64,000 nt of DNA, from positions 1 through 64,000 of the forward strand of contig JAJECI010000011.1 of assembly GCA_022822065.1 (NCBI GenBank). Direction: 5' to 3'. The position numbers were made by a program, and so were the translations under genes. The stretch is from Candidatus Dadabacteria bacterium (GTDB lineage Bacteria; Desulfobacterota_D; UBA1144; Nemesobacterales; Nemesobacteraceae). Shown piece by piece: positions 49,944 to 56,323 of this stretch (positions are counted from its first letter, which is position 1; each line of letters starts with the position of its first letter). Under the pieces are notes generated by a model, which saw only the letters and a program-made list of their open reading frames with translations, did no database searches and was not told the DNA's origin.

Positions 49944-50405
49944 ATGAGAAAATTTCTTTTCGTCTTTCTGCTTTTTTTAGTGTTTCCGGCCTCTTCTTAT
50001 GCGGAGCAGCAGAGCTACAAAACCTATACCGATATAGGGGAGCTTGAACCTCCGACAGTAACCATCACCCAGGTTCTTTTCTCCCGGGATGAGTTCCATA
50101 GAAAAATATTCATCCTTGAGGGACAGGTGGGCGAATTGCGGTTTAAGAGGATGGCGAACGGGAGGAAGTTCACCCTGTTTCGGTTCTTCGAGCATGATCC
50201 GGAAAAAAGAATAGACGTCTACGCCAGAGGGTTCGTGGAAGGCATTGAGAACGGGAGCAGGATAAGGGTCTGGGGCCGCTACAGCAAGGATAAAAGGTAT
50301 TTTCTCAGCAAGCGCAAGAACATCATGAAGGCGAAGAAGATCCATATTTTTCAGGAGATTCCGGAATTGCTAGAAGACCTGCCTGTAGAGAAAAATCCTT
50401 CTTGA
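49944..50405 (+). CDS. Hypothetical secreted protein
   Basis: I do not recognise this 153-residue protein. A clear signal peptide (KFLFVFLLFLVFPASSYA, cleavage near residue 21) is followed by beta-rich sequence with FILEGQVGELRFKRMANGRKF and IRVWGRYSKDKRYFLS (first shown here as FILEGQVGELRFKR). This suggests an OB-like fold in the periplasm. A TATAAT at 49919-49924 lies 19 nt before the ATG and should be its promoter. It is the last gene before the AT-rich insert. Confidence 0.75.
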   Translation: MRKFLFVFLLFLVFPASSYAEQQSYKTYTDIGELEPPTVTITQVLFSRDEFHRKIFILEGQVGELRFKRMANGRKFTLFRFFEHDPEKRIDVYARGFVEGIENGSRIRVWGRYSKDKRYFLSKRKNIMKAKKIHIFQEIPELLEDLPVEKNPS

Positions 50406-50537
50406 ATGATACTTAAATACATATTCAGGCATTTACTAATATTGATATTTTAGGCGATTGAAGACTTTATGTACATCAGTAAATAATAGAACTGTAACAG
50501 GTTAAATACAGGGTTGTTAATAAAGCAAATCAGCAAA

Positions 50538-50642
50538 ATGAATCTCTGCCCACATGGAAACCCCGATGGAGAGTTGCAAGATGCTAGAACCGAAGCATTT
50601 ATTGAGTGGACTAGAGATACAAAGTTTAACTTCTGGAGGTAA
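50538..50642 (+). CDS. Possible small ORF coupled to the DUF4145 gene
   Basis: ATG at 50538, 34 codons, stop TAA at 50640-50642 inside the ribosome-binding site (GGAGG) of the next gene. The peptide (MNLCPHGNPDGELQ..., ending TKFNFWR) has natural-looking composition. It may be a leader peptide coupled to translation of the DUF4145 gene, or a remnant of a longer upstream protein. Weakly supported. Confidence 0.3.
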   Translation: MNLCPHGNPDGELQDARTEAFIEWTRDTKFNFWR

Positions 50643-50648
50643 GCGATT

Positions 50649-51407
50649 ATGGTCAAGGAGGGCAGGAATCAGCCTGAAATCTATAAAGAGCAATTTGTTT
50701 GTCCATATTGTGAGGTATTTGCTAAACAAGATTGGACTAACACACAAGAAATTGTGGAAACAATCAAGTACTTAATAAATCATATATATTTGGATTACAG
50801 GGGAGAGGTAGGTGACTATGCCCAGCAAGAAATTAAAAAGTTTAATACTCATGTATTCCAAAAACTGCCCAGAAATTTGTCAGTGAGATTTTTCTCACAA
50901 GATTTCAGCTTTGCTAAATGTCAAAACTGTTCTGAGATGAGCATCTGGATGGAAGAAGACAAAAAGATGATTTATCCCAGATTACTTTCTTTTCCAGACC
51001 CCAATGCAGATATGGATGATGATATCAAAGAACTTTATCTTGAAGCTGCGAAGATATTCCAAGATTCTCCACGGGCATCTGCTGCGATACTGCGATTGTG
51101 TGTTGAAAAACTATGTGGGCAGTTGCAAGAAAAGGGGGATTTAAATACCTGTATAGGTAACTTGGTAGAGAGAGGATTAGACCAGCGAATACAACAGGCC
51201 TTAGACTATTGTCGTGTTATTGGAAATAATGCTGTGCATCCGGGAGAAATAGATATAGAGGAAGATCCTGACATGGTTAGATTTCTCTTTGATCTGGTAA
51301 ACGACATAACCCGAGACATGGTAACAAAGCCGAAGGAAATGGAAAAGAAATACTCATCTCTTCCCGAAAAGGTCAAGAAACAAATAGAGAAAAGGGATAA
51401 GAAATAA
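50649..51407 (+). CDS. DUF4145 protein with N-terminal zinc-ribbon cysteines
   Basis: A 252-residue protein. The N-terminal half has CxxC pairs (C18/C21 in CPYC, C91/C94 in CQNC) that could bind zinc. The C-terminal half (about residues 125-225) matches DUF4145, a domain of the HEPN superfamily: SPRASAAILRLCVEKL and then RVIGNNAVHPGE with R189 and H197. DUF4145 proteins are frequent next to restriction and other defence genes. The ATG at 50649 has GGAGG at about 9 nt. It converges on the SIR2-type gene, 33 nt apart. Base composition is clearly more AT-rich than the neighbouring chromosome. Confidence 0.82.
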   Translation: MVKEGRNQPEIYKEQFVCPYCEVFAKQDWTNTQEIVETIKYLINHIYLDYRGEVGDYAQQEIKKFNTHVFQKLPRNLSVRFFSQDFSFAKCQNCSEMSIWMEEDKKMIYPRLLSFPDPNADMDDDIKELYLEAAKIFQDSPRASAAILRLCVEKLCGQLQEKGDLNTCIGNLVERGLDQRIQQALDYCRVIGNNAVHPGEIDIEEDPDMVRFLFDLVNDITRDMVTKPKEMEKKYSSLPEKVKKQIEKRDKK

Positions 51408-51440
51408 GAATTATGTCATTCTGAAATTGAGCAGCTAAAC

Positions 51441-53066
51441 CTAATTCACTTTCTGCCATCTTGGAGAAGAGGTGATTTCCTCGATACCTTTTACAATTTG
51501 TCGTGCTTCTCTAGCGGACACAGCAGTATGCTTGTGCACAACATCGTTACGAATTTTTAGCCATCGCAGTATCCGCTGGACTTCGGATTTTCTAAGCAAA
51601 TCTTCATCACTAGCCATAACAAGCCTTTGTCTGAAAGGTATAAATTTCCTGCCCCTACCCCTAATGGGTTGAGTTTGTAAGTCATCCCGGTTCCTTATAG
51701 TCGTTTCGAGGTGCGAGATTGCTGAAATAACTGCTGCTCTATACTCTTTTGCATGAAGTAAGCGGTGTGCTTCGACAAGCCTAGGTTTTAGTTCTTTTGC
51801 TGCCTCCTTAAACCACCCATCCAAGGCTGCGAGAAAGGTTTCAACTTCATCAGATTCTAAATCTGGTCGCTTAAGTATTTGAGCCTGCCGTATGTTTAAT
51901 GGAATAGTTGTGCCTTCTTCAAAGATTATACGAACTCTATCGGCCTTCTTGCGTGTGATAGCTATGCGAGTTTCAACCGATGCGAAATTGCTGGATGCAT
52001 CTATTAAGACTAAAAAAGCCTTACTAATTAAAGCTTCGATTTTCGCAACTAAATTGTCACCTGGAGAAATGACATCATCTCTCGTCACAGGAACAAACCC
52101 TGCTTCTCGAACCAGCGGAAATACTCGTTCACGATAAAATCGACGCACCGATGAAGGTAGTGTGAAATAACAAAGCCTAGTGGGGGAATCTTTTGGAAAC
52201 AAAAACTCTTGTAAGGATTCTTCTTCTATAACTTGATTCCCGACTGCAAAGCTTTCTTGCCAATAATCCCTCAGTTCTTCAAATACTTCAGAAAGGATTT
52301 TTCCATAGTTAGCTTTATTCTTGGATAGGTTAATTACCTCTACACCCCGGCGTTTAAACCGTGCTATGTCCGCAGTTCGTGCGCCAACACACAATGCGTA
52401 TGCGGGCCGCCTAACCTTTCCGAGTCGTTTACCAACAATCTTCCACAATTGGCGAAAGTCGGGGTCATCTAAACTGTATCCGATCAGCACTGCAGTTCGA
52501 GTGATAAACAGATTTGAAAGGTATGTTGCGATTACTGGATAGCGTTCAACAAATAGGTCGTAATCTTCTTCAGTGGCGACCAAACGGTCCGGATGATTTA
52601 GGTCTCCGTGTAATTTTAACAAAGCAGTGCTAGGGGTTCGATTTATGGATAATTGCTTTTGTTCAATGACAGGTGTGTAAGGTCTTGAAATATTCTCGTA
52701 TCCTTTCTCAAGAAGAAAATCAAAATTTGTGGTGCAAACAATATCAAATTGAACAGCGCAGAATGTGCGGTGTGTTTTGCCTAGTTGGGCTTTATTTATG
52801 AACAAAAGGTTGGATAGCTTTTCAATAAGTTTTGCGCGTCCGAACTTATGTTCATAAGCAGAAATACTATCAATAGGATTTTCATATTCATAGTCTTGCA
52901 TGTCTTCAGCAAGGAATTTGCCAAGCTCATTCCAAAGTGGCATGGTTTGCCCAGATGGAAGAACAGCGTTTCTCGACAATCCGGCACCAACAATGGGAAG
53001 CCATCGGTTTGCAACAAGATCATCAAGTAATGGCTTTGGAAAGTGTTTAAGGTGTTTTGCTGCCAT
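51441..53066 (-). CDS. SIR2-TIR-like-HEPN multidomain protein, probable phage defence effector
   Basis: A 541-residue protein with three parts. Residues 20-270 are a SIR2_2-type NADase domain: IVGAGLS at 25-31, TTNFD with N114, KLHGD with H153, and GYSLDD at 196-201. Residues about 296-395 have an alpha/beta TIR- or nucleoside-deoxyribosyltransferase-like pattern (VFPLVREAGF, then SKAFLVLIDASS, then E365). The C-terminal region (about 425-535) looks like HEPN, with RNDVVH (R506, H511) fitting Rx4-6H. SIR2 and TIR domains in known defences degrade NAD. Their union with HEPN is inference from motifs only. AT-rich, no clear ribosome-binding site before the ATG. Confidence 0.8.
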   Translation of the reverse strand: MAAKHLKHFPKPLLDDLVANRWLPIVGAGLSRNAVLPSGQTMPLWNELGKFLAEDMQDYEYENPIDSISAYEHKFGRAKLIEKLSNLLFINKAQLGKTHRTFCAVQFDIVCTTNFDFLLEKGYENISRPYTPVIEQKQLSINRTPSTALLKLHGDLNHPDRLVATEEDYDLFVERYPVIATYLSNLFITRTAVLIGYSLDDPDFRQLWKIVGKRLGKVRRPAYALCVGARTADIARFKRRGVEVINLSKNKANYGKILSEVFEELRDYWQESFAVGNQVIEEESLQEFLFPKDSPTRLCYFTLPSSVRRFYRERVFPLVREAGFVPVTRDDVISPGDNLVAKIEALISKAFLVLIDASSNFASVETRIAITRKKADRVRIIFEEGTTIPLNIRQAQILKRPDLESDEVETFLAALDGWFKEAAKELKPRLVEAHRLLHAKEYRAAVISAISHLETTIRNRDDLQTQPIRGRGRKFIPFRQRLVMASDEDLLRKSEVQRILRWLKIRNDVVHKHTAVSAREARQIVKGIEEITSSPRWQKVN

Positions 53067-53311
53067 ATTATGTTTTGCAGGGGTTGACTTATATATGGAT
53101 TGAGTCAGCGTACAGTTAAATCCTCAAATTATCAACTCTGATGAAGTTAGGCACTGCTGCTTTTGCCCCTTGCTTGAAATTTAAAATCTCCCATCCGATA
53201 TTCTCAAGAGTTTAGAACAAAACGAATTGTGTAAAATAGCGTAGAATTTCCTTTGAGGAAGATTGGATGAAATAATGCTTTAATTTTTTCGCAAATTTTA
53301 GTTTTCTTCAT

Positions 53312-53317
53312 TATATT
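53312..53317 (+). promoter_or_regulatory. -10 element of addB (leaderless type)
   Basis: TATATT ending 6 nt before the ATG at 53324; the gap has no Shine-Dalgarno sequence. A second candidate promoter (TAGAAT) lies further upstream near 53245. Confidence 0.4.
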
Positions 53318-53323
53318 TGCTAG

Positions 53324-56323
53324 ATGAGAGTAATTTATCACCCTAAAAAACTCACTTTCAAAGACCTTTTCAGAAAACACGGACTTAACCCAAGCGATGA
53401 AACAACCCTGTTTCTTCTTCCAGGGGTATCGGTTGTACAGGAAATAGAAGATTATTGCTCTGGCGAAGGGGTATGGGGAAAAAATCTGCTCACGTTCAAC
53501 GAACTGTCGGACTTCATAAACGAGGCATCCTCGAACCTGAAAAAGAAAAGGATATCAAGGATCCAGTCCTTATCCGTGACCAGAAAAGCGGCGGAATCGA
53601 TCTCGGAGAACCTTGAGGTTTTCAGGGAATTCTCGCAGAACCGGGATTTTCTCAACGCCGCGGCTTCCATTATTTCAAAACTTAAGCAAAGCAAGGTCTC
53701 CGCGAAGGAACTTGCCGGGTCCGCCAAGAGAATCAAGGCGCGCGGTCTTCGAGGGAAACTCTCGGACATAGGGCTTGTTTACGAAAGATACGAAGCTCTT
53801 GTGGCGAAAAGAGGCTTTCTTGACGACGCGGATTCCATCCGTGTCACCTCAGAAGAGCTTGACGGAGAAGGGCTTGCCCCGTTTTTCCCGTCCGCGAAAA
53901 GACTCGTGATCTTCGGTTTCTCCGATCTTACCCCCTGCGAACTTGACGTGATAAAGAGCCTTTCCTCCACGGTCTCCGAAACCTTCTTTTTCCTGGGCGA
54001 TTTCGGCGACCTGAATGAATACAGGAACTGCTTTCTGGGCAGGCTCAGCGAAGCTTCCATGGATTATGAAGAAGATTTCACAATGACAGGTGAAGTCCTG
54101 GAAGGCAAGACAGAGAGGGAATTCAGCGAGTTTCGCGACTCTCACGACGAGATTGAATATGTCTCAAGGACGATCAAGAAGCTTGTTGTGGATGAGGGGC
54201 GGAAAGCCTCTGATTTTAAGGTTCTTGTGAGGTCGGCGCAGAAACGCGATCGCTCCATAGTTCGTATATTCGAGAAAAACGGGGTTGCCGTCGACCTCAG
54301 GAACTCCGGAACCTTGGCCGGGAGCGTGTACGGACGCCTTGCGGGCGATATACTTCGCCTGAAGTCGGGCAATTTTCACAGAAACGACCTGATCGCGCTT
54401 CTCTCAAACCCTCTTTTTGTTCTCTACCTGGGAGAATCTCAACTCTCGCGGCGCTGCATCAACCTCGTAAAGGGGGTTTCTTCTGCAGATAAAAACTACA
54501 GGACAGTAAGCGGCATCTCCGGCTGGAAGAGGATTCTGGAACATATAGCGGAGCAAGACGCCCAGTTGTCCGCAGTTGCCCGTGATATAGTCCTGGCGCT
54601 TGATTCTGTATCGTCAAAGTTCGGCAAAAGAAGTTTTGCCGCGATGACTTCTGATCTAAGAAGGATCTTTTCAGAACTCGGGGTTTCTGAGAACTCTGCA
54701 CTGCTTATAGAGGGAAACAAGACCACTAGGGAGTGTTTTGATGAGTTCTTCTCTTTTCTGAGGGAGCTTTCCTTTTCTTACGGGGAGTTTGATTTCCGGG
54801 TTTCAGACCCCGGAGAGTATCTTTTTCTCCTGGATGAGTTTATGGGGGAGAGGGCAATTCCCTACAAAACCCCCTGCGGGGCCGATTCGCAGAGGGTAAG
54901 CGTTATTGATTTCTCGGCAGCGCGCGGCATAAACCCTGGGTTTCTTTTCCTGATAGGCCTTTCGGACACTTCTTTTCCCTCTGCTATTCCCCTAGACCCC
55001 GTTCTAAAGCCCAGAGAGAAGGCGGAAATAAACCGGGCACTTAAAAAAAGGGTGTTTGACGAGGAGGGTTTTCATTACGAGAAGGAAAAGCATCTTTTCT
55101 CCACCCTGAGCGCTTCGGCTTCCGAGAAGGTGTTTTTCTCCCGCTTCCGCTACGATCAGAGATCAAGGGAGGTAAACCCATCCGATTTTCTTGAGGAAAT
55201 GGGAGTTTCTCCCTCGCCGCTCAGCTCTGGGATCTTTTTGGAGTCGGGGGAGATGTTTTCAAGGGAAGATGCTCTATTTCACTGCTTTTTACCCTCGGGA
55301 GCGGGCAATGGCGACCCGAAGATCGTTGAAGTCTTAAGCCAACATTACGGTTCGGATATCGTCGGTCATATCTCCGGGGGTATTTCCGCTGAGAGAAAAA
55401 GACTTGAGCTTGAGGGGGATTATACGGATTTTGAAGGGGTCCTTCTAAACGCTCCATCCCCTCCGGATACCCTCTCACCCACAAAGCTTGAAACCTACGG
55501 GACATGCCCATTCAAGTACTTTTCACAGGAAATACTGGAGCTGGGCATGGTCAAAGACCCTGAAGAACAAAGGGCGTCACAGCTTGATCTCGGTTCACTT
55601 GCCCATGACATCCTGAAAGAACTTATGGAAACCGTTTTCGCAGAAGGTTCCGATACGCCACAGTTAAGCCGTGTCTTCGATGTCTACGGCAAACTCAGGG
55701 GGAAGTACGAAACGAGGCCCGGCTTTTTCACCCACCTCCCAAAAAGCGTGGCTGAGATGGAGAAAAGAAGGTTCTTTGACTTTGTTTTGCCGAGTTTCAT
55801 CTCCGATGAGATCCAAAGGATCGGAAAAGATGAATTTACTCCCCGGTTTTTTGAAAAGAAAGTGAAGTTTCGTATCGCAAATGCCGAAGTCAGCGGGAAA
55901 ATAGACAGGGTTGATGTCAACGGAGACAGTGAGGAAAACGCCGCGGTTATCGATTACAAGATCGGGGGCTTAAGTGACAGGAAATATTTTGATTTTAAAA
56001 ATCTGCAGCTTCCCCTTTATCTGAAGGCGCTGCTTGATGAGGGGACTGTTCCCTCCCGGGGTTCTTATCTCTCAATCGGAAGACCAGGAGACAGCGTTTT
56101 GTCTAAGGATCTTTCTCTGGATGAAGCGGTCTCGCTTGCGGAGTACTACGTGGAGAACATAAAGAAAGGGTTTTTCCCTCCCTACGTGGGGAAAAAGGAA
56201 GAAAATCAGGAGACCCATTCCCTCAAGATGTCAAAGAATCGCCCCTGTTCCTACTGCGATTATGTGGATCTTTGCAGGGTGAAGGACGGCGCGGTAAGAA
56301 AAACCGGGCATTCGCAAGGATAA
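53324..56323 (+). CDS. addB: AddB-type helicase-nuclease subunit with 4Fe-4S cysteines
   Basis: A 999-residue subunit of an AddAB-type (RecBCD-like) complex that processes double-strand breaks. The C-terminal PD-(D/E)XK nuclease has GKIDRVD then AVIDYKIGG. The nuclease is bracketed by the iron-sulfur cysteines: one in TCPFKYF (near residue 728) and three in CSYCDYVDLC (975-984). The N-terminus lacks a clear Walker A (LFLLPGVS), as in AddB proteins where only AddA is the motor. Its stop is 3 nt before addA. The ATG stands in a leaderless-type context. It flanks the AT-rich defence insert but has normal composition. Confidence 0.92.
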   Translation: MRVIYHPKKLTFKDLFRKHGLNPSDETTLFLLPGVSVVQEIEDYCSGEGVWGKNLLTFNELSDFINEASSNLKKKRISRIQSLSVTRKAAESISENLEVFREFSQNRDFLNAAASIISKLKQSKVSAKELAGSAKRIKARGLRGKLSDIGLVYERYEALVAKRGFLDDADSIRVTSEELDGEGLAPFFPSAKRLVIFGFSDLTPCELDVIKSLSSTVSETFFFLGDFGDLNEYRNCFLGRLSEASMDYEEDFTMTGEVLEGKTEREFSEFRDSHDEIEYVSRTIKKLVVDEGRKASDFKVLVRSAQKRDRSIVRIFEKNGVAVDLRNSGTLAGSVYGRLAGDILRLKSGNFHRNDLIALLSNPLFVLYLGESQLSRRCINLVKGVSSADKNYRTVSGISGWKRILEHIAEQDAQLSAVARDIVLALDSVSSKFGKRSFAAMTSDLRRIFSELGVSENSALLIEGNKTTRECFDEFFSFLRELSFSYGEFDFRVSDPGEYLFLLDEFMGERAIPYKTPCGADSQRVSVIDFSAARGINPGFLFLIGLSDTSFPSAIPLDPVLKPREKAEINRALKKRVFDEEGFHYEKEKHLFSTLSASASEKVFFSRFRYDQRSREVNPSDFLEEMGVSPSPLSSGIFLESGEMFSREDALFHCFLPSGAGNGDPKIVEVLSQHYGSDIVGHISGGISAERKRLELEGDYTDFEGVLLNAPSPPDTLSPTKLETYGTCPFKYFSQEILELGMVKDPEEQRASQLDLGSLAHDILKELMETVFAEGSDTPQLSRVFDVYGKLRGKYETRPGFFTHLPKSVAEMEKRRFFDFVLPSFISDEIQRIGKDEFTPRFFEKKVKFRIANAEVSGKIDRVDVNGDSEENAAVIDYKIGGLSDRKYFDFKNLQLPLYLKALLDEGTVPSRGSYLSIGRPGDSVLSKDLSLDEAVSLAEYYVENIKKGFFPPYVGKKEENQETHSLKMSKNRPCSYCDYVDLCRVKDGAVRKTGHSQG

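Follow-up and report, generated by a model that had tools for sequence, protein, structure and literature searches.

A candidate anti-phage gene encoding a predicted SIR2, TIR-like and HEPN fusion protein in a small insert at a variable chromosomal spot of a Candidatus Dadabacteria bacterium

The 64,000-nt stretch of DNA analysed here (the window) comes from Candidatus Dadabacteria bacterium (GCA_022822065.1, contig JAJECI010000011.1) and carries a short AT-rich insert between two chromosomal genes, orf153 and an addB-like gene. The insert codes for two convergent genes separated by 33 bp, the larger of which encodes a protein of 541 amino acids (aa) that we read as a fusion of SIR2, TIR-like and HEPN domains and as a candidate anti-phage protein. 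The features, in window positions, are as follows.

51441..53066, minus strand: SIR2, TIR-like and HEPN protein, 541 aa, called from its open reading frame (ORF), Pfam, relatives, predicted structure and conserved residues
52242..53066, minus strand: SIR2 NADase-type domain, residues 1-275 (N114, H153), PF13289 at E 6.6e-25
51786..52187, minus strand: predicted TIR-like domain, residues ~294-427 (E365), fold match to TIR domains at Z 13.7
51462..51785, minus strand: predicted HEPN domain, residues ~428-535 (R506, N507, H511), fold match to AF_0298, motif kept in 10 of 10 aligned rows
50461..53318, no strand: insert of ~2.86 kb between orf153 and the addB-like gene, drawn from the empty site in genome G015 and the drop in GC content, right edge by eye
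50649..51407, plus strand: DUF4145 (HEPN-superfamily) protein, 252 aa, with a CxxC...CxxC zinc ribbon, PADLOC PD-T7-4 and Pfam DUF4145
49944..50405, plus strand: left flanking gene orf153, 153 aa, conserved in the genus and sharing a contig with addB in 9 of 11 genus relatives
53324..56323, plus strand: right flanking addB-like gene, Pfam ADDB_N and PDDEXK_1

GC content is 0.398 for positions 50460-53300 versus 0.523 in the remaining window, and among 2.84-kb stretches taken every 100 bases (mean 0.517, standard deviation 0.030) the eight with the lowest GC all overlap this segment. The AT-rich segment is a genuine insertion, because the same two flanking genes lie 91 bp apart in G015, which belongs to another species of the same genus. 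Homology to G015 on the left flank stops near 50460, and on the right flank it restarts at ~53319 (from the alignment, judged by eye). The initial annotation had correctly seen two convergent genes in an AT-richer segment, but the interval it gave, 50406-53323, marks the ends of the neighbouring genes rather than the insert itself. No direct or inverted repeats of at least 9 bases were found in common between 50401-50560 and 53181-53330.

The SIR2 part of the large protein is recognised from sequence (Pfam SIR2_2, 88.3 bits versus a cut-off of 24.5), and its solved sequence relatives are ThsA, KomC and DSR2. N114 and H153 align with the ThsA motifs TTN.D and HGD, with Ala at the Asn position in one ThsA entry, and neither varies across all 10 rows of alignment A7 or all 11 members of alignment A2, which counts the window protein among its members. 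In the predicted model of the whole protein (predicted local distance difference test score, pLDDT, 77.6), the SIR2 part matched KomC and ThsA with Z 26; the best score for DSR2 was Z 24.6, and a Sir2 homologue, which we take to be of the deacylase type, reached only Z 13.8. This model was built from 10 sequences without templates, as was that of residues 285-541 from 9.

The separate model of residues 285-541 had a pLDDT of 80.6 and a best Foldseek E of 2e-4. Its middle part matched the TIR domain of Hydra TRR-2 (4w8g; Z 13.7, root-mean-square deviation 2.8, 120 residues aligned), followed by SPARTA TIR-APAZ (Z 13.5), SfSTING (Z 13.4) and DNPH1 nucleotide hydrolases (Z 12.7), and its C-terminal part matched the HEPN protein AF_0298 (2hsb; Z 12.6, root-mean-square deviation 2.1, 104 aligned). 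In TIR domains the catalytic Glu belongs to the helix that follows the third strand. In the model of the whole protein the candidate Glu, E365, lies in helix 360-372, following strand 352-356, and its alignment column holds Glu in 9 of 10 A7 rows, with K342, G336 and D331 invariant among the TIR-like positions. HEPN ribonuclease (RNase) motifs of the RNxxxH type follow the spacing R-x4-6-H. R506, N507 and H511 form such an RN...H motif that is invariant in 10 of 10 A7 rows, with H511 ranking 2nd, N507 3rd and R506 10th in conservation among 103 HEPN positions. A7 leaves out four relatives, namely L030 (C-terminal part out of frame; Glu at 365), L033 (SIR2 only) and the broken frames L034 and L003, and the ranking further omits L026, a near copy of L025. 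Among the 11 members of A2, TIR_2 was matched in three (best E 0.0013), CAP12-PCTIR_TIR in one (0.0012) and HEPN_RiboL-PSP in three (best 0.028). Together these results support a three-domain protein, with SIR2 assigned by sequence and the TIR-like and HEPN parts by predicted fold and conserved residues. The same three domains had been proposed from the DNA alone: N114, H153, R506 and H511 are present as claimed, the candidate catalytic Glu corresponds to E365, and structure prediction, suggested at the time as a check, recovered the TIR and HEPN folds that the Pfam cut-offs missed.

We found 13 relatives of the large protein, on ten genome contigs, two plasmids and one viral contig from IMG/VR. 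The genome contigs belong to Ramlibacter, Cyanobium, Sphingomonas and Rhizobium and to metagenome-assembled genomes (MAGs) called Alphaproteobacteria, Deltaproteobacteria, Myxococcales, Eisenbacteria, Methylococcaceae and Methanomicrobiales; the plasmids, from Agrobacterium and Bradyrhizobium, match at least 80% of the query, and 195 other plasmid records match less of it. The genome-contig scan requires exact matches to short conserved peptides, and it returned no relatives with a single-protein query and ten with a two-sequence alignment query. The viral relative was found by a profile scan, while the first viral scan and one limited to the TIR-HEPN part gave none, and phage records yielded three partial matches, all inside residues 13-271. 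All three parts occur in one intact frame in eight of the 13 relatives (L002, L025-L029, L031 and L053), and L033 consists of SIR2 only. Assembly contamination is possible for any single record. Among 57 genomes of the phylum, the large protein was found in its own genome only (E up to 1e-10). The gene on viral contig L053 is intact, has a GC content of 0.458 against 0.615 in its surroundings, and lies near major head and head scaffolding genes (PHROG match in two of six neighbours scanned).

Comparison of the relatives supports a gene that travels as a single-gene unit, because the DNA common to four pairs of relatives ends at the edges of the gene. The Ramlibacter and Cyanobium copies encode proteins that are 94% identical and share a 1,654-bp stretch of DNA at 87.4% identity that starts 35 bp before the gene and stops 14 bp after it, with nothing else in common across 17.6 and 11.6 kb; in the three further pairs the DNA match is confined to the gene or to at most 8 bp around it. 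In seven of nine relatives the GC content of the gene is at least 0.02 below that of its surroundings. No neighbour family occurs in more than three of the 12 loci compared (ORFs of at least 70 aa). A regulator-like ORF recurs beside the gene in L002, L027 and L032 (annotated LysR in L002), and an oxidoreductase-type ORF is common to L032 and L034, two loci whose cross-match also comes from antisense ORFs of the SIR2-TIR-HEPN gene itself.

TIR genes stand beside two of the relatives. In Rhizobium sophorae a TIR protein with ThsB-like matches lies directly 3' of a broken copy (L032:9650-10900), and in the Methylococcaceae MAG the end of the SIR2-only relative overlaps the start of an 844-aa TIR-Ras/Roc-DUF4365 protein (L033:156-3514), an arrangement that is possibly a split, GTPase-gated variant. 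The TIR proteins of these two loci match each other.

The spot occupied by the insert varies within the genus. The first 400 residues of addB are present in all 12 genus genomes searched, its own genome counted, and the orf153-addB interval could be measured in nine of 11 relatives (G019 and G023 have no orf153 on the addB contig). It is empty in two of the nine, G015 and G016 (~115 bp), and spans 865 to 11,925 bp between match ends in the other seven, where the cargo differs. G025 carries a 1,704-aa type ISP/IIG restriction-modification protein together with PDC-M30A and PDC-M30B candidates, and G017 a Fic/DOC protein adjoining an 82-aa ORF, with Doc-like ORFs seen by eye in G018, G024 and G021 as well; G026 holds a PQQ dehydrogenase-type protein, G024 a sulfate permease (a like ORF in G018, by eye) and G020 a CN-hydrolase-like protein. 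Since the gaps of these relatives hold restriction-modification, Fic/DOC and metabolic genes (sibling loci L035 and L037-L043), the spot accepts mixed cargo, of which defence is one part. The genomic context supports a defence role for the large protein, because the insert lies at a variable spot where G025 has restriction-modification, plasmids and a phage-like contig carry copies, and the gene is transferred as a unit of its own; the earlier call of a candidate defence locus gains its support from these same three observations.

Among known defence systems, the large protein resembles Thoeris ThsA in its N-terminal SIR2 domain of NADase type, which has the same catalytic residues and a fold match at Z 26, and in following SIR2 with a domain from the TIR-DrHyd-SLOG clade (PMC9503650). 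It differs from ThsA (SIR2-SLOG) in carrying a predicted TIR/DNPH1-like domain where SLOG stands and an additional predicted HEPN domain, and the locus differs from Thoeris in that no ThsB gene adjoins it in the window, neither neighbouring gene being TIR. Its best PADLOC match is ThsA over residues 5-230, corresponding to positions 5-227 of the 478-position profile, with the second half unmatched. The middle region has no SLOG match in Pfam at E up to 1 and models as TIR, and the ThsA SLOG domain is absent among the 50 fold matches listed for the TIR-HEPN model; TIR and SLOG folds are related, and a row missing from such a list does not speak against SLOG.

DSR1 and DSR2 are single-gene systems. 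Like them, the large protein is of the SIR2 NADase type and a candidate defence protein, but it has 541 aa rather than more than 1,000, and TIR-like and HEPN parts instead of their long C-terminal part; the NCBIfam models Dsr2 (71.0 bits) and Dsr1 (18.6 bits) did not reach the cut-off of 1,400. KomC of KomBC (HAM-SIR2) was the top VIA-align match (9xvc_E; Z 26.0, root-mean-square deviation 2.5, 248 aligned), tied with ThsA, but KomC is a 264-aa SIR2-only protein complexed with KomB, as given in PDB titles. In TIR-STING, TIR is an NADase effector driven by STING. The middle domain shares its TIR fold with TIR-STING and with SPARTA TIR-APAZ, both of which are without SIR2 or HEPN. In SPARTA the TIR domain is the NADase effector and Argonaute drives it (PMC10952713). 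Membership in Thoeris, DSR1/2 and Avs5 was considered and rejected, the match being confined to the SIR2 part. The component domains are each known in defence; a SIR2-TIR-HEPN fusion was not found described in the literature searched, whose scope excluded most subscription papers, preprints and supplements and whose sources were available in part, so the fusion may be new or may be listed elsewhere. It would add a family that the PADLOC and NCBIfam models reach only through the SIR2 part, bar one chance-level NCBIfam match (E 0.072).

The reading that we favour, and hold to be reasonably probable, makes the large protein an abortive-infection protein that is self-contained and encoded by a single gene, with SIR2 as its main effector, a TIR-like gate and HEPN as an RNase or sensor. 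The SIR2 domain would be a hydrolase of nicotinamide adenine dinucleotide (NAD+), silent before infection, and infection would lead through SIR2 to NAD+ depletion and cell death, as suggested by SIR2 relatives such as DSR2, for which NAD+ loss and abortive infection are described (PMC10973363). The TIR-like domain stands after SIR2, where ThsA has its SLOG ligand sensor, and most likely gates SIR2: it would bind or produce an NAD-derived nucleotide, oligomerise, or do both. The TIR, DrHyd and SLOG folds belong to a single clade whose members process or sense nucleotides, and the SLOG domain of ThsA senses the signal that turns on the ThsA SIR2 NADase (PMC9503650). HEPN, which has the complete RNase motif, would cleave RNA as a second effector or sense phage RNA or protein. 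A single-gene protein of this kind, present in distant bacteria, would be a compact object in which to study the link between NAD depletion and RNA cleavage within a single immune response.

Several observations weigh against this reading. The frames are broken in four of the 13 relatives (L003, L030, L032 and L034). The window protein falls under the Pfam cut-offs for TIR (13.1 versus 28) and HEPN (14.8 versus 28.4), Z values near 13 can be reached by chance with helical bundles, and profiles of the TIR-like (A4) and HEPN (A5) parts retrieved no solved TIR or HEPN protein from the PDB at E up to 1, the matches being chance-level ones to ribosomal L23 (best 0.33), Ski2 (0.84) and oligoribonuclease (0.6). 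The E365 column holds Asp in the broken copy L032, and E365 ranks 20th in conservation among 133 TIR positions. Four of the nine sibling spots carry metabolic or unassigned genes and two are empty, though two of those four also have Doc-like ORFs (by eye). PADLOC matched only four of ten neighbours of the relatives scanned. One of these four matches is weak, and two belong to the TIR genes in L032 and L033, which fit better with a partnered, Thoeris-like arrangement.

The conservation of individual residues bears on an alternative in which SIR2 is the sole enzyme and the TIR-like and HEPN parts are catalytically dead, serving as sensor or scaffold only; we regard it as possible, if rather unlikely. 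E365 shows only moderate conservation, and a Ser that lies two positions ahead of it varies. The long C-terminal part of DSR2 is a sensor, which counts for this alternative. So does the SLOG domain that follows SIR2 in ThsA and recognises the signal (PMC9503650). The invariance of R506, N507 and H511 speaks for catalysis instead, being what an active HEPN RNase would show.

At the other extreme, all three parts could be active in a one-polypeptide NAD circuit. On infection the TIR-like domain would make a signal nucleotide from NAD+, and this signal would switch on SIR2 in its own chain or in one next to it, in effect Thoeris within one gene, with an active HEPN RNase as an independent second killing step. 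We consider this circuit doubtful. In Thoeris, the signal maker and the NAD-consuming killer are separate proteins (PMC9503650). If the circuit were real, a phage would need to overcome three different enzyme activities within a single protein.

As a third possibility, the large protein could be a ThsA variant whose TIR-like middle domain only senses a signal made by a separate TIR protein (ThsB). The ThsA match at the top of the PADLOC results would suit it, as would the TIR gene with ThsB-like matches directly 3' of the broken Rhizobium copy and the SIR2-only L033 adjoining a TIR-Ras-DUF4365 protein that matches the TIR protein of L032. Its own genome also holds two other TIR genes, seen as TIR_2 matches outside the window at G000:C8:142397-142723 and 258360-258731, ~90 and ~205 kb from the gene on the same contig; the open frames that contain them are 855 and 461 aa long. 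Set against this, the second half of ThsA is unmatched, TIR was found in only L032 and L033 among 13 neighbour proteins scanned, and the gene moves alone, and we judge a variant ThsA to be distinctly improbable.

Under the favoured reading of a self-contained protein, the second gene of the insert needs a separate account. It matches the PD-T7-4 model of PADLOC (PDLC04109; 244.4 bits, E 1.9e-73, best stretch covering positions 22-209 of 211, no cut-off being given) and Pfam DUF4145 (E 3e-15), and C18, C21, C91, C94, R189, G192, N193 and H197 are invariant in seven of seven DUF4145 rows. DUF4145 belongs to the HEPN families (PMC3710099), and PD-T7-4 is a system that came out of a functional selection (PMC9519451); no difference from it was seen in the insert gene, although a SIR2 neighbour is not part of PD-T7-4. 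The initial annotation could match the combination to no named system, which holds for the large protein, matched only in its SIR2 part, and fails for the DUF4145 gene.

That annotation had also treated the two genes as one candidate system; in such a system the DUF4145 protein would be sensor, regulator or antitoxin of the SIR2-TIR-HEPN effector. The genes are 33 bp apart within one insert and both are of defence type, yet they are convergent, hence not an operon, and the loci compared (1.6 to 17.6 kb) held no DUF4145 relative beyond chance around the 13 SIR2 proteins (best E 0.83), and no SIR2-protein relative at E up to 1 in 11 distinct DUF4145 loci; in five plasmid loci around DUF4145 relatives no SIR2 gene is annotated. 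A two-gene system, which we now think very unlikely, was rejected because this co-occurrence is lacking in the loci compared, short as they are, and the DUF4145/PD-T7-4 gene appears, from these comparisons, to be an independent defence gene sharing the insert. The pair is limited to its own genome among the 57 of the phylum because the SIR2 protein occurs in none of the others. The loci were also searched for a gene remnant upstream of DUF4145, and apart from the known flank only one match, at chance level (E 0.069), came up.

We give marginally less credence still to the idea that SIR2, instead of being an NADase, works as an ADP-ribosyltransferase or in the processing of RNA ends, on RNA cut by HEPN, which a fusion of SIR2 with an RNase would suit and for which an RNA repair role proposed for some phage sirtuins (PMC9503650) offers a precedent, since the nearest proteins by sequence and fold are defence NAD+ hydrolases and the Sir2 homologue trails far behind them.

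Three further arrangements were seen around relatives and siblings. The sibling genome G020 has a distant SIR2 match (L005, G020:C12:84924-85583) within an open frame of 1,230 aa, a DSR-like length. The Agrobacterium fabrum gene is preceded by a multiubiquitin/ThiF-type cluster and a dCTP deaminase gene (L002:3230-7887), and the Cyanobium copy adjoins an HmaC homologue (L026:7921-11232; PADLOC E 6.4e-297).

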